A stretch of 64,000 nucleotides of DNA from an uncultured Dehalococcoidia bacterium (GTDB taxonomy: Bacteria; Chloroflexota; Dehalococcoidia; Lucifugimonadales; Lucifugimonadaceae): NCBI GenBank assembly GCA_913052475.1, contig CAJXEJ010000003.1, forward strand, positions 22,385-86,384, read 5' to 3'. The translations under genes were made by a program, and so were the position numbers. This document shows, piece by piece, positions 40,456-47,583 of this stretch. The notes beneath the pieces were generated by a model. That model saw only the letters and a program-made list of their open reading frames with translations, was not told where the DNA came from and did no database searches. The stretch's first letter is position 1, and each line of letters begins with the position of its first letter.

Positions 40456-42408
40456 CTACCTGTTTCGCACGTTCGGTAAACAGAACGAATTCGAACAATG
40501 GACAGCTTTGAGGTTTCTGGACGTTACATCGTGGTAGACGACCAGTGGCAATCCATCTGATCCTAGGGTTATTGCGGTGTACTGACCCACAAGTGATGTT
40601 GTGTCGATATCGAACGAGGAAGCAGAGCTACAAGCGATGTCGTTGCAATGCCCGACTTCCAGTCCGCCGTTGAACGAATCGTAGTAGCTGATGATCGCCC
40701 GGCCATCGGAGCCGATAATCATCGAGTTCCAGTCGCCAACTCCGCCGCTGGTTACCGCTGAGGAAGTGGTTGAATCTGAGCAGGCTATCGTCGTGCAGTG
40801 GGCGGTCTTCAGGTCGTTGCTGGTGGCATCGAAGTAGCTAATCAAACCGCGCCCGTCGACTCCGATTACGATCGAAGAAGCCTTTCCGACATCACCAAGT
40901 GCATCGATTGTTTCCGTTGTGCTCGACGAGCAGGTGGCGTTGGAGCAGTGAGCCACCTTCAATGAGGTGTTTGTCACATCGTAATAGCTGATCAGGGGAA
41001 ATCCGTCTGCGCCGATAGCAATGGAAGTGTATTGACCGACATCTCCGGTGGAATCAACAGTCGCAATATCTGCCGAAGTGCAAGCAGTGTTGTTGCAATG
41101 TGCAACTTTCAGGTTGCCGTTGCTGGCGTCGTAGTAGCTCGCAACGCCAAGCCCATCGGTACCGATGGCAATCGATGTGTAAGCACCGACATCACCTGAA
41201 GCTTCAACTGTACTTGAGCTGCTTGTCGCGCAATTGACTGTTTCGCAGTGGGCGATTTTGAACGCGGTATCGCTCGAGTCACGGTACGAAACGAGCGGAA
41301 GCCCATCAGTGCCGATAATTATTGATGAATGCAGATCACCCGATCCCGTTGCCTCAACGATCGACGGAGTGGCGGACGTGCAATTCACATCGTCGCACTG
41401 CGCAACGTATAGCGAGTTGTTTGCTTCGTATGCGATTACGGGGAGACCGTCATCGCCGACGGTTACTGAATTCCACAGACCGGCGTCCCCGGGACCGATA
41501 GCGAGAGTGGTGATGAGATGTTTGCCCCTCTGGAACGATACGGAATCGTTCGGTAAAAGCGTCGTGCAAATCAGAACTCCTGTAGCGTCAATTCCGGTAG
41601 CCACCAGTCCTGCGCCACAAGATTGGCCTGACGCGGTGTAGGCCCCAGCCGACGGTCCAGGATCTCCGCAAACCCAGGTAGAGCCGTTGAAAATGGCGAT
41701 CTCGCTCGATGCACAGGTCATGCCGCCGAGTGTGGTGTTGAGCTCAGTGGGGCGGTTCTGAATGTCGTTCCAACCTACCGCAGTCAAACCATCGTCACCA
41801 TCGTCCAGTCCGGCGGGACGATTCTCGATGTCCGCCCATTCAACCGAACTCGCTGCTGTTCCACCTGAACTTAGGTCACTCGGAACTCCGGTTAGTGAGG
41901 ACCAGTGGATTGCGACATCGGCGAGACCCGAAGCCAGTTCAAGAGCCGTGTAGTATTCGGAATCGTGATCATGATCGCTCCGCGCCACCGTGCCAGCTTC
42001 GCCGGTCCCTCCGAAATCGATCGAGGTTACGTCGCCTTCAATCGAACCTTCTGTAGTCAGACCAAGCCCGAGCACTTTCGACTCGGGTTCGCCAGCGTCG
42101 CCCTTTGCGCCAGCGTCGCCCTTTGCGCCCGTGGCTCCCTTTGCACCCGTGGCTCCCTTTGCACCCGTGGCTCCCTTTGCACCCGTCTTACCTTCTGGTC
42201 CGGCTGGTCCAGGAAATCCTGTAAGCCCGGTCGAACCTGCGGATCCTTGTTCGCCTGTCTTCCCCTGTTGTCCGGCGGGTCCCTGCGGGCCGATTTCGCC
42301 CTGGTCGCCGCTACACGCGGCGATCGCTAAAGCAGCAAGGGACAGAGCAAGGATCAGGATTCCGAGTTTCGGGTTTGGAAGAACTCGACGATTCATGTAT
42401 TTCCACAC
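40456..42408 (-). CDS. Lipoprotein with collagen-like (G-X-Y) stalk and seven ~50-aa repeats
   Basis: Signal/lipobox LALSLAALAIAACS; about 25 consecutive GXY triplets (GDQGEIGPQGPAGQQ...GAKGDAGEP); then seven SIxIGxDGLPLISYYDxxNxxLKVAHCxxxxC units. Confidence 0.88.
   Translation of the reverse strand: MWKYMNRRVLPNPKLGILILALSLAALAIAACSGDQGEIGPQGPAGQQGKTGEQGSAGSTGLTGFPGPAGPEGKTGAKGATGAKGATGAKGATGAKGDAGAKGDAGEPESKVLGLGLTTEGSIEGDVTSIDFGGTGEAGTVARSDHDHDSEYYTALELASGLADVAIHWSSLTGVPSDLSSGGTAASSVEWADIENRPAGLDDGDDGLTAVGWNDIQNRPTELNTTLGGMTCASSEIAIFNGSTWVCGDPGPSAGAYTASGQSCGAGLVATGIDATGVLICTTLLPNDSVSFQRGKHLITTLAIGPGDAGLWNSVTVGDDGLPVIAYEANNSLYVAQCDDVNCTSATPSIVEATGSGDLHSSIIIGTDGLPLVSYRDSSDTAFKIAHCETVNCATSSSSTVEASGDVGAYTSIAIGTDGLGVASYYDASNGNLKVAHCNNTACTSADIATVDSTGDVGQYTSIAIGADGFPLISYYDVTNTSLKVAHCSNATCSSSTTETIDALGDVGKASSIVIGVDGRGLISYFDATSNDLKTAHCTTIACSDSTTSSAVTSGGVGDWNSMIIGSDGRAIISYYDSFNGGLEVGHCNDIACSSASSFDIDTTSLVGQYTAITLGSDGLPLVVYHDVTSRNLKAVHCSNSFCLPNVRNR
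42091..42186 (-). repeat. 18-bp tandem repeats encoding the collagen-like GAKGAT/GAKGDA segment
   Basis: + strand: gccagcgtcgccctttgc x2 then [ag]cccgtggctccctttgc x3, in phase with 6-aa units. Confidence 0.85.
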
Positions 42409-42699: not shown

Positions 42700-44064
42700 A
42701 TGGCAACAGTCACCGGTAATCGAATTACGCTAAACCCGCGCGAAATGCCGTCTCGCTGGTACAACGTCGAAGCTGATCTTCCGTTTCGTGTGCCACCCAT
42801 GATGTCGCTTTCGGGTTACCCGATTACCGCTCGTGAACTGGAACCTTTATTCCCAAAGCTGATCATCGAGCAGGAACTGAATGCGAAGAACCGAACGTTC
42901 AACATTCCTAAAGAGGTAAAAGAAGCCTATCAGCAATGGCGGCCGACGCCGATGTTTCGAGCCGCCGCCCTTGAAAAAGAGTTGGGCACCCCGGCGAGAC
43001 TCTATTACAAAGTTGAAGGTGGGAGTCCGAGCGGTTCGTATGAATCGAATACTGCGATTCCGCAGGCGTTCTACACCAAGAAAACTGGTGCCGACGGAAT
43101 AGTTACAGGCGGTGCCGGTGGAGTTTGGATTAGCGCTATCGGGCATGCCGCCTCGTTGTTTGGACTGAACAGCCGTGTTTATAGCGTTCGAAAGCCAGGA
43201 TCGGATCGGGCATGGGGCGATGCGTACGGTCGAGTATGGGGTATCGACGTTCAGGCCAGTCCTTCAGAAATCACCCGGGCTGGCAAGCTTCAACACAAGA
43301 AAGAAGGTCCCGATTCTGGCTCGATAGCGACCGCACTCGCTGAGGCGTACGAGGAAGCAACTCGGAATCCCGATGTGAAGTTTGCGATTCCAACTCTGAT
43401 GGGTAATACGCTGATTCACCAGACGATCGTTGGACTCGAAGCACAACGGCAACTAGCAACTGTCAACGAAGCACCAGATTATGTGATCGGGTCTATCGGC
43501 GCCGGATCACACTTCGGTGGACTCATCGCACCTTTTGTTCCAGCTCGAATTCAGGGACGAAACACAAGATTCGTCGCAGTCGAAGAATCTTCAACCCCAA
43601 GCCTGACCCGGGGTGTCTACGTCGAAGAATCGGCTGACGCTGCCGGCTTGATGCCGCAGGTTCCGATGTACACGCTTGGTCGCGAATATGCTCCGCCAGG
43701 TGTGCTTGCAGGAGCGATGAGATATCACGGTGTTGCACCGATCGTCTCGTCGCTTTATCGAGAGAAGTTCATTGAGGCGGTGAGCCATAGTCAGGTCGAG
43801 TCTTACAGCGCTGGTCTAATGTTTACACGTGCAGAAGGTATCGTTCTTTCGCCACATGCCATGTACACCATCAAAGAGGTGATTGAGCAGGCGATGCGTT
43901 GCAAACAAACCGGCAAAGATGACACGATTCTTTTCACCGTTACTCCCGCTATTAACGCCGAGTCCTCGCCGTACGATTCCCTCCTCGATGGCGTGATGCA
44001 CGATGAGAAACCTGAAGAAGTTTCACTCAGGAAATCGCTCGGAAGATTTGTTGGTCGAGGCTGA
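42700..44064 (+). CDS. TrpB2-like fold-type II PLP-enzyme homologue lacking the PLP lysine
   Basis: QWRPTPMFRAAALEKELGTPARLYYKVEGGSPSGSYESNTAIPQAFYTKKTGADGIVTGGAGGVWISAIGHAASLFGL; GAGSHFGGLIAPF. The TrpB2 motif GSHKxNTA is replaced by GSYESNTA. Confidence 0.85.
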   Translation: MATVTGNRITLNPREMPSRWYNVEADLPFRVPPMMSLSGYPITARELEPLFPKLIIEQELNAKNRTFNIPKEVKEAYQQWRPTPMFRAAALEKELGTPARLYYKVEGGSPSGSYESNTAIPQAFYTKKTGADGIVTGGAGGVWISAIGHAASLFGLNSRVYSVRKPGSDRAWGDAYGRVWGIDVQASPSEITRAGKLQHKKEGPDSGSIATALAEAYEEATRNPDVKFAIPTLMGNTLIHQTIVGLEAQRQLATVNEAPDYVIGSIGAGSHFGGLIAPFVPARIQGRNTRFVAVEESSTPSLTRGVYVEESADAAGLMPQVPMYTLGREYAPPGVLAGAMRYHGVAPIVSSLYREKFIEAVSHSQVESYSAGLMFTRAEGIVLSPHAMYTIKEVIEQAMRCKQTGKDDTILFTVTPAINAESSPYDSLLDGVMHDEKPEEVSLRKSLGRFVGRG

Positions 44065-44235: not shown

Positions 44236-45234
44236 ATGGATATCTCCAAAGAGAAGCTGGAGTGGATGTACAGTACCATGTACCGAATCCGCCGCTTCGA
44301 GGAGACGATGCTCGAACAGACCCTAAAGGGAAACTCGATGGGTGTCGCACACACGTCGGATGGGCAGGAAGCACCTCCCACCGGTATTTGTGCACATCTC
44401 ACCGACAAGGACTGGATCGGTTCTACTCACCGTGGTCACGGCCACTGCATTTCCAAAGGTCTCGACACCAGCGCAATGATGGCCGAAGTATTCGGTAAGG
44501 CGACTGGTCAGTGTGGTGGTAAGGGTGGGTCGATGCATATTTCGGACTTCTCAAAAGGGATGCTTGGAGCGAACGGTATCGTCGGAGCCTCGATTCCGCT
44601 GGCAGTTGGTGCAGCACTAACATCCAAGTACAAGGGAACTGAAAACGAATCAGTCGGAGTTTCCTTCTTTGGCGATGGTGCGTCATCGCAGGGTGTACTT
44701 CACGAAGCTATGAACCTGGCTTCGATCTGGAAGCTTCCGGTGATTTTCGCTTGCGAGAACAACGGGTACGCCGAAGCAACTCCGTCGTGGTATTCGATTT
44801 CTGCTGAAGATATTGCCTCACGAGCAGAGGGCTACGGTATGCCCGGCGTTGTGGTCGACGGTATGGACGTATTTGCTGTTTACGACGCTGCTGGCGAAGC
44901 GATCGCTCGAGCACGTGCCGGTGAAGGTCCGACGTTCCTTGAGATGAAGACGTACCGTTACCACGGTCACTTCCACGCCGACGATGCGAGCAAGTATCGA
45001 AAACCGGAAGAAGAGGCGTTTTACAAGGAAAAAGACGCCATCAAGCACTTCGAGCGAACTGTCACCAGGCAAAAGTTGATGACGGAAAAGAAGATGAAGA
45101 GCATCCGTGATGTAGCTGAGCAGGAGATGCTCGACGCTGTTGATTTCGCCTTAACCAGCCCCATGCCCGAAATTTCTACGCTGTATGACGATGTTTACGT
45201 CAACTACTCGAACCCAATTTCGGGCCTGCGATAA
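44236..45234 (+). CDS. 2-oxoacid (pyruvate/acetoin-type) dehydrogenase E1 alpha subunit
   Basis: MYRIRRFEETM, GQEAPPTGICAHLTDKDWIGSTHRGHGHCISKG, GGKGGSMHISDFSKGMLGANGIVGASIPLAVGAAL, FFGDGASSQGVLHEAMNLASIWKLPVIFACENNGYA. Confidence 0.93.
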   Translation: MDISKEKLEWMYSTMYRIRRFEETMLEQTLKGNSMGVAHTSDGQEAPPTGICAHLTDKDWIGSTHRGHGHCISKGLDTSAMMAEVFGKATGQCGGKGGSMHISDFSKGMLGANGIVGASIPLAVGAALTSKYKGTENESVGVSFFGDGASSQGVLHEAMNLASIWKLPVIFACENNGYAEATPSWYSISAEDIASRAEGYGMPGVVVDGMDVFAVYDAAGEAIARARAGEGPTFLEMKTYRYHGHFHADDASKYRKPEEEAFYKEKDAIKHFERTVTRQKLMTEKKMKSIRDVAEQEMLDAVDFALTSPMPEISTLYDDVYVNYSNPISGLR

Positions 45235-45296
45235 ATCTGTATTCCTTCTAAAAACCTGATTCTTTACTATCAGAATTCAAGAACTAGATAAAAGAT

Positions 45297-46367
45297 ATGA
45301 CGACCTCACAAGCAAGTAAATCGATTGGACCCGGATACGAGGGTGTAGCTGGTTCTGAAAAACGATTCCGAGATATTTTCCGTGACACCTTGCGGGCTGA
45401 AATGCTCCGTGACGAAGATGTTTTCCTGATGGGCGAGGACATCTCCGGCGGGTTCGACAAAGACACCAAAGAACCGCTCGATGCGTGGGGCGGACCGTTC
45501 GCCGCGACGAAGGGTTTGGTTCAGGAGTTTGGTCCTGACCGAATTCGCGATGCACCGATTTCCGAGGCTGGATTCGTTGGTGCGGCGGTAGGTTCGGCAT
45601 TGACCGGTCTCCGACCGGTGGTCGACCTTATGTACTTCGACTTCGTGACTGTGGCGTTCGATCAGCTGCTTTCAAACGCAGCCAAGAGTCGTTACATGTT
45701 CGGTGGTCAAACCCGTGTTCCGCTGACCCTGTTCGCGCGTTCAGGCGCCGGTACTGGTCACGCCGCTCAACACTCCGAGAGTTTCTACTCGATACTGGCG
45801 CACATCCCTGGTCTAAAGGTGGTGGTTCCTTCCGATCCTTACTCGGTAAAGGGACTGCTCGCTGCTGCAATTCGTGACGACGATCCTGTGTTCCTCGTGA
45901 ATGACAAGAAGCTAATCAACCTCACTGGATTTGTTCCCGATGAGGACTACATCATCGAGCTCGGTAAGGGTCGTTACATGCGGCGAGGAACCGACGTTAC
46001 GTTGGTTGGAATGTCGTACACATCGGTTGCATGTCAGAAGGCTGCCGCGCAGCTTGCTGAGATTGGAATCGATGCTGAAGTGATCGACATGATGTCGCTT
46101 TCACCCTTTGATGAGGACATTCTTATTGAGTCGGTGGCGAAGACCAATAACGTTGTGATCGTTGACGAAGATACACCTCGTGCTTCGATGGCTTCCGAGT
46201 TTGCGGCAGTGATCGCCGACAAGGCATTCGATCATCTCGATGCTCCGGTGAAGCGGGTCACTGCTCCGCACGCACCGGTTCCGTACAACCGTGATCTTGA
46301 GATTGCGTTTATGCCACAACCCGAGGACATCGTCGGCACGGTGAAGAACACGCTCGATCGCGAGTAG
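45297..46367 (+). CDS. 2-oxoacid dehydrogenase E1 beta subunit
   Basis: DEDVFLMGEDISGGFDKDTK; GPDRIRDAPISEAGFVGAAVGSALTGLRPVVDLMYFDF; DTPRASMASEFAAVIADKAFDHLDAPVKRVTAPHAPVPYNRDLE. Confidence 0.94.
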   Translation: MTTSQASKSIGPGYEGVAGSEKRFRDIFRDTLRAEMLRDEDVFLMGEDISGGFDKDTKEPLDAWGGPFAATKGLVQEFGPDRIRDAPISEAGFVGAAVGSALTGLRPVVDLMYFDFVTVAFDQLLSNAAKSRYMFGGQTRVPLTLFARSGAGTGHAAQHSESFYSILAHIPGLKVVVPSDPYSVKGLLAAAIRDDDPVFLVNDKKLINLTGFVPDEDYIIELGKGRYMRRGTDVTLVGMSYTSVACQKAAAQLAEIGIDAEVIDMMSLSPFDEDILIESVAKTNNVVIVDEDTPRASMASEFAAVIADKAFDHLDAPVKRVTAPHAPVPYNRDLEIAFMPQPEDIVGTVKNTLDRE

Positions 46368-46689: not shown

Positions 46690-47583
46690 CTATCCAACAG
46701 GCATTTTGCGGTTAGTCATTTTCCGACCGATCACCGCTCGTTCTTCCCTGCCACCGGAGAAGATCTTCGCTCCCATGTCGATGAGCACCTGCAGGTTGCC
46801 TGCATCATCGAGAGTCGGATCGTTCCAAGAGCAGAGGAACGCCAGACCGTTTTCGTCGGCTGCCTTCTTGATCTTGTTTCGAACCGCGTCCATCTCTGCC
46901 GGGTACGGTGGGTCGTGTGCGTCGACGTTGCCGAACGACATTCCCATATCACCCGGACCCCATTCGACGAATGCCAGACCAGGCACGCGGCAGATGGCAT
47001 CGGAATTGGCTGCAGATTCCTGGTTCTCAAGCTTCAAACCAAGGAACAGTTCGCCATCCGGATTCAGTGGCCATGGGTCGGCAATCTTCGTGTATTCCTG
47101 CGGTGTGATCCCCCAGATTTCTGCGGGTCGACCCTGTCCGCCAGCACCACGCTGACCTTCTCCAAGACCCTCTCGCCCGTTTTTGTGGAACGGGTAGCGG
47201 CACTCTTCAATGAAAGCCCGAACGGCATCGGCCTGTCGTGCATGCGTGTGGAGGATTCCGTGGACTCCCGCGGAAAGAACCTGACGGATCTGCCAGGCGT
47301 TTGCTCGAACTTCTTCCATAGTTCGGCAGTTCGACGGGAGAGTTGAGATAACGGCTGGTGTGCGATGACCGGCTTTGGTTGGTCCACCGTCGACGAGTCC
47401 CTTCATGAACTGCGTAAGTCCAGCGACATCGAATGCGTGGTGCTCGAAGTCGGTGATAAGGAAGTCGGCCCAAGTGCTTGCCTGCTTGATGCCGTTTTCG
47501 TAAGTGAGATCGCCAGTGCCGGTGTAGTAGACCGGTTCACCCGCTTCGATGAGTTCGATCACTCGGTTGATTCGTTTTGCCAT
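46690..47583 (-). CDS. HpcH/HpaI aldolase family protein
   Basis: ADFLITDFEHHAFDVAGLTQFM, GVHGILHTHARQADAVRAFIEECRYPF, ELFLGLKLENQESAANSDAICRVPGLAFVEWGPGDMGMSFG. Confidence 0.85.
   Translation of the reverse strand: MAKRINRVIELIEAGEPVYYTGTGDLTYENGIKQASTWADFLITDFEHHAFDVAGLTQFMKGLVDGGPTKAGHRTPAVISTLPSNCRTMEEVRANAWQIRQVLSAGVHGILHTHARQADAVRAFIEECRYPFHKNGREGLGEGQRGAGGQGRPAEIWGITPQEYTKIADPWPLNPDGELFLGLKLENQESAANSDAICRVPGLAFVEWGPGDMGMSFGNVDAHDPPYPAEMDAVRNKIKKAADENGLAFLCSWNDPTLDDAGNLQVLIDMGAKIFSGGREERAVIGRKMTNRKMPVG

Follow-up and report, generated by a model that had tools for sequence, protein, structure and literature searches.

A conserved TrpB2-like protein lineage without the PLP-binding lysine in Dehalococcoidia

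In PLP enzymes, a lysine of the active site forms the internal aldimine and usually also moves a proton. The 64,000-nucleotide stretch of DNA analyzed here (referred to as the window), which stems from a marine SAR202-type bacterium of the class Dehalococcoidia, encodes a homolog of TrpB2 that carries glutamate in place of this lysine. We set out to investigate whether such a gene is genuine, how widely it is distributed and what its product might do. We find that the lysine-less gene is real, conserved, evolutionarily structured and misannotated, and that the role of the encoded protein is probably a different one from the vitamin-B6 chemistry of its annotation.

A TrpB2 homolog with an altered cofactor site

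Family models and structure comparison both place the protein with TrpB2. Pfam detects PALP alone in the 454-residue sequence (75.9 bits), and the NCBIfam model NF009057 (TrpB-like PLP-dependent enzyme) accepts it with 451 bits at a cut-off of 366, as it does the distant lysine-less members described below (551-560 bits). The cut-off of TIGR01415 (trpB_rel, 518.85) is missed by the window protein (388.6 bits) as well as by the distant members (504-511 bits); the canonical paralog scores 656.8 bits with this model. The closest solved structures to the window protein are the TrpB2 chains 6hul_B, 4qys_B and 6hte_B. An AlphaFold2 model built from 21 sequences reached a mean pLDDT of 77.6 and a pTM of 0.81, and a Foldseek search with this model returned TrpB2 entries as the top PDB matches (TM 0.76-0.80 by query length). 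According to the model, the TrpB fold is retained in the lysine-less protein. The open reading frame, the NF009057 score and the structural matches thus bear out the intact 454-residue TrpB2-like frame that a preliminary description, made from the sequence alone, had reported; its sequence letters and positions are also correct.

The same description had named a Lys-to-Glu and a His-to-Tyr exchange, the absence of the catalytic Glu from the segment TGGAGGVW, and the retention of GAGSHFGG. The HMMER alignment with 6hul_B, in which SGSYESNTA lies opposite TGSHKINTA and VTGGAGGVW opposite VTETGAGQW, identifies the exchanged residues as Glu115 and Tyr114 and aligns Gly137 to the catalytic Glu; GAGSHFGG is present as reported (Table 1). 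Three further changes had been missed, namely GGGSN to GAGSH in the phosphate loop, the replacement of the E350-equivalent Glu by His386, and the replacement of SGHG by TPAI near residue 415. Within the loop, Gly267, Gly269, Ser270 and Gly274 are the same in all aligned proteins, with or without the lysine.

Table 1. Features of the lysine-less gene and its downstream neighbors (window coordinates)
Feature	Position	Strand	Description
Lysine-less TrpB2 homolog	42700..44064	+	454 aa, ATG start, intact ORF; assigned by families, orthologs and clade
PSGSYESNTA, residues 110-119	43027..43056	+	Tyr114-Glu115 at the His and PLP Lys of canonical TrpB2; HMMER against 6hul_B
VTGGAGGVW, residues 135-143	43102..43128	+	Gly137 at catalytic Glu position, Val142 at loop Gln position
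GAGSHFGG, residues 267-274	43498..43521	+	Former PLP-phosphate loop; kept, with two changes (GGGSN to GAGSH)
RYHG, residues 341-344	43720..43731	+	Unchanged in all aligned TrpB2, lysine-less or canonical
His386	43855..43857	+	Replaces the E350-equivalent Glu (ESxH motif) of canonical TrpB2
Segment around TVTPAI	43936..43953	+	In place of canonical LSGHG; Thr415 at the Ser contacting the pyridine nitrogen
E1-alpha	44236..45234	+	TPP-dependent 2-oxoacid dehydrogenase (PF00676); neighbor outside the feature
E1-beta	45297..46367	+	PF02779/PF02780; neighbor outside the feature

Judged from the alignment, no other lysine appears to have taken over, as none is clade-specific at any cofactor position. 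K104 does not vary in the lysine-less clade, nor does it in canonical TrpB2. Two lysines that the clade conserves, K227 and K392 (the latter present in 89% of the distant members), are not located in a cofactor motif. Without the lysine and the catalytic Glu, formation of an internal aldimine would be impossible, and PLP-dependent beta-replacement would not be expected.

Conservation and origin of the lysine-less clade

Of 19 genomes of the genus, the window's own among them, 16 contain the gene, at 81-92% identity; genus g8 of the same family carries a copy at about 62%. When the species-genome collection was scanned with a peptide pattern, the same-genus copies recovered included one on the complete chromosome of Candidatus Lucifugimonas marina, a carrier that has been cultured (PMC10444878). 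All 22 distinct intact orthologs, from two genera, contain GSYESNTA, a uniformity that excludes chance or error. The YES motif, whose conservation the preliminary description had proposed to examine, is therefore unchanged in all of them, and orthologs with a retained lysine, which would have spoken against its reading, did not occur (0 of 31 clade members). Pairwise dN/dS ratios lie between 0.016 and 0.043, below those of the neighboring E1-alpha in five of six pairs; the ratios are rough, because some pairs approach saturation at synonymous positions, but their direction is clear. The window's subgroup is under strong purifying selection.

In order to trace the lysine loss beyond these close relatives, we searched genomes across the class. 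Genus g11 has two copies with TYEANTA. The degenerate DNA pattern YExNTA[IV]xQA identified four further members outside the family among 393 class genomes, with 0 matches for the backwards control pattern, and 246 class genomes searched by profile, with the motif read in the best 30 loci, added the three forms GGHEANTA, GSHQMNTA and GSHELNTA. The nine distant Dehalococcoidia members without the lysine carry YE, HE or HQ. The single gene of the preliminary description is one member of a clade that is spread over the class and patchy in its occurrence: one order has it in 2 of 15 genomes, a second order in 4 of 19. In the other Chloroflexota classes no member was found by pattern; a profile search, run at a threshold under which the distant type is still picked up, was likewise negative, with these two Dehalococcoidia orders serving as positive control. 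As far as the Chloroflexota sampled here are concerned, the clade is confined to Dehalococcoidia; independent lysine losses elsewhere, in archaea or other phyla, are possible.

At the lysine position, Lys occurs in 0 of 31 clade members as opposed to 35 of 35 canonical sequences, with Glu in 30 members and Gln once, and the preceding residue has changed from His to Tyr in most members. The position of the catalytic Glu holds Gly or Ala in all 31. The loop Gln is replaced by Glu or Asp in nine of nine distant members (for example TATGNGEWG); the window's subgroup has Val or Leu there. This subgroup has also lost the Glu of the ESxH region that the distant members keep, and its C-terminal SGHG segment has become TPAI or TPSV. 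The pyridine-nitrogen position is variable, with S, T, A, D or H in different members. A one-residue insertion is found in every lysine-less protein (31 of 31) and in none of the 35 lysine-bearing TrpB2 sequences; further marks common to the 31 are Ser to Thr at position 232, Leu to Met at 234 and 340, and His to Tyr at 389.

In a maximum-likelihood tree of 57 sequences, all 23 lysine-less rows lie beyond one branch with a support of 100/99. The clade retains a support of 98 after removal of the active-site columns, and the distant members alone are supported at 99. The stem branch of the window's subgroup is long (1.59) and is drawn to another long branch if the distant members are omitted; the placement of this subgroup inside the clade is less certain than its lysine loss. 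The single supported clade together with the common insertion makes one loss of the lysine probable, and the simplest account of the sequences would be that this loss was followed by a stepwise remodeling of the pocket.

Possible functions and genomic context

Tryptophan synthesis in the source genome is covered by other genes, with trpA on contig C2, TrpB1 on C7 and a lysine-bearing TrpB2 on C18, in agreement with the earlier observation that no trpA lies nearby and with the suggestion made there that the true trpB be sought elsewhere. The contigs C2 and C7, and with them trpA and TrpB1, are separate in this assembly (G000). Of 16 same-genus genomes, 6 contain the lysine-less gene but no detected canonical TrpB2, the assemblies being incomplete, which suggests that the gene is more than a mere backup copy. 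A heteromer with canonical TrpB2 is, given the same incomplete genomes, unlikely to be the general state. On the complete chromosome of Ca. Lucifugimonas marina (locus L133, G041:C1:62900-64800), the canonical lysine-bearing TrpB2 is split by a frameshift, which may be a sequencing error, and the lysine-less copy is intact.

We favor, with modest confidence, the reading that the protein is a pseudoenzyme derived from TrpB2, which would bind an anionic ligand in the old cleft and serve as a sensor or allosteric partner. RYHG and the glycines and serine of the phosphate loop are preserved, as is the TrpB fold in the model, and the retention of loop and fold suggests anionic ligand binding. The former cofactor and substrate cleft would accommodate an anionic, probably phosphorylated, metabolite, and the open-closed movement of the fold could then drive sensing or the action on a partner; the choice between a sensor and an allosteric subunit is one that we infer.

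A smaller chance falls to a new, PLP-independent catalysis, with Glu115 as general base or metal ligand and the substrate held on the old phosphate loop; in the distant members, the second acid would join Glu115. The conserved acid at the lysine position (Glu in 30 of 31) and the second one at the loop Gln of all nine distant members, which nonetheless lack the catalytic Glu, look selected and speak for directed change rather than decay, and catalysis fits them too. However, the window's subgroup has Val or Leu instead of the second acid and retains neither the E350-type Glu nor SGHG, so that only a single candidate residue is common to the clade; moreover, no set of metal ligands is conserved across it. 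A pseudoenzyme arising from a PLP enzyme is more likely than such new chemistry. That the clade comprises natural enzymes of the TrpB superfamily (fold type II) working without PLP, with Glu exactly at the site of the cofactor lysine, would be a somewhat unlikely outcome, of which we know no earlier case.

It is improbable that the protein still uses PLP or PMP in non-covalent form, with Glu115 pairing with the PMP amine or with an external aldimine. Lysine-less PMP enzymes exist in fold type I, and the retained phosphate loop as well as the Ser-to-Thr exchange at position 232, which we take to be near the PLP phosphate, would suit such a use. The lack of conservation at the pyridine-nitrogen position and the Tyr that most members have in place of the His preceding the lysine position argue against it.

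In both genera, E1-alpha and E1-beta follow directly downstream of the gene in the same orientation, as a rule after 99-249 bp, and Pfam confirms the E1 genes that had been named as next downstream in the window (44236-46367). This arrangement would suit a subunit, specific to the lineage, that assists or regulates the adjacent dehydrogenase, and a transcript common to the gene and E1 is possible. The distribution of the genes nevertheless renders such a subunit highly improbable: an E1-alpha homolog occurs in 76 of 76 family genomes searched, most of them without the lysine-less gene, and the cytochrome, E1-alpha and E1-beta block is intact without the gene in G001, G003 and G019 (loci L124, L125 and L132). 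The E1 block is likewise intact without it in G042 (L131), which belongs to the window's own genus. The distant clade members are located away from E1, and in L015 and L016 a stretch of 912-915 bp separates the gene from E1. Linkage and co-occurrence with E1 are therefore not obligate, and an obligate complex with E1 is not indicated. From the preliminary description, the repurposing of a fold without its PLP lysine stands, strengthened by the orthologs, selection, the single clade and the lack of a replacement lysine, whereas the implied link to E1 is weakened by the E1 loci without the gene.

The extra stretch in L015 (7360-8271) and L016 (7363-8277), from two same-genus species, holds an apparent membrane-protein ORF; a tRNA scan of it was empty. 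A promoter and terminator scan performed no better than shuffled sequences. On the other side of the gene, a collagen-like protein with GAKGATGAKG repeats and a secretion-type N-terminus (window 40456-42408, minus strand) lies beside it in the majority of same-genus genomes, with identities of about 58-73%. An intact 297-residue protein at 46690-47583 (minus strand) is conserved in the genus and has weak similarity to HpaI aldolase and no Pfam match. Near the distant members we find the trehalose genes otsA/otsB with MscS (L083, L086), MscS (L084), CorA (L083, L122) and glucan phosphorylase (L122). These genes recur across different families but not beside all distant members, and they follow no obvious logic; we rejected a common neighborhood. 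As the neighborhoods differ among the subgroups, genomic context yields no function.

An assembly error, a point mutation or a decaying pseudogene has practically no probability, being contradicted by the same motif in all orthologs, from independent assemblies and the complete isolate chromosome, by the absence of internal stops and by the low dN/dS.

Relation to known systems

With its graded forms (HE and HQ; YE plus a second acid; YE in a rebuilt pocket), the clade opens the dismantling and reuse of a PLP site to direct testing, and one of the species that carry the gene has been cultured. The finding also exposes a systematic misannotation, as all lysine-less members tested pass the NCBIfam model whose name denotes a PLP-dependent enzyme. 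The open-access literature searched contained no description of a conserved lineage of TrpB-fold proteins lacking the lysine.

TrpB2, the O-phosphoserine-dependent tryptophan synthase beta (4qys, 6hte, 6hul), has the fold, length, N-terminal region, GxGS phosphate loop and RYHG in common with the lysine-less protein, at 31-33% identity on structural alignment. Unlike TrpB2, the window protein is devoid of the PLP lysine, the catalytic Glu, the loop Gln and SGHG.

The closest functional precedent is the plant TSB-like pseudoenzyme, a TrpB-fold paralog derived from canonical plant TSB that has lost the catalytic Glu and tryptophan synthesis and acts as an allosteric activator of TrpA, a loss explained there by Glu-to-Ala and Asp-to-Glu exchanges (PMC12727527). 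Loss of the PLP lysine, as present in the window protein, is not among the changes reported in the section considered here (PMC12727527). What the lysine-less gene shares with a pseudoenzyme of this kind is the loss of catalytic residues under purifying selection.

SPTLC1, AZIN1 and Rv3778c belong to folds I and III rather than to the TrpB-like fold type II. Human SPTLC1 and AZIN1 are homologs of PLP enzymes for which a role outside catalysis is presumed (PMC2748086), and the M. tuberculosis homolog Rv3778c, likewise presumed to be non-enzymic, is stated to be without the PLP lysine (PMC12910592). Lysine-less relatives of PLP enzymes are already known in other folds; the element that appears new is a lineage of them in the TrpB fold.
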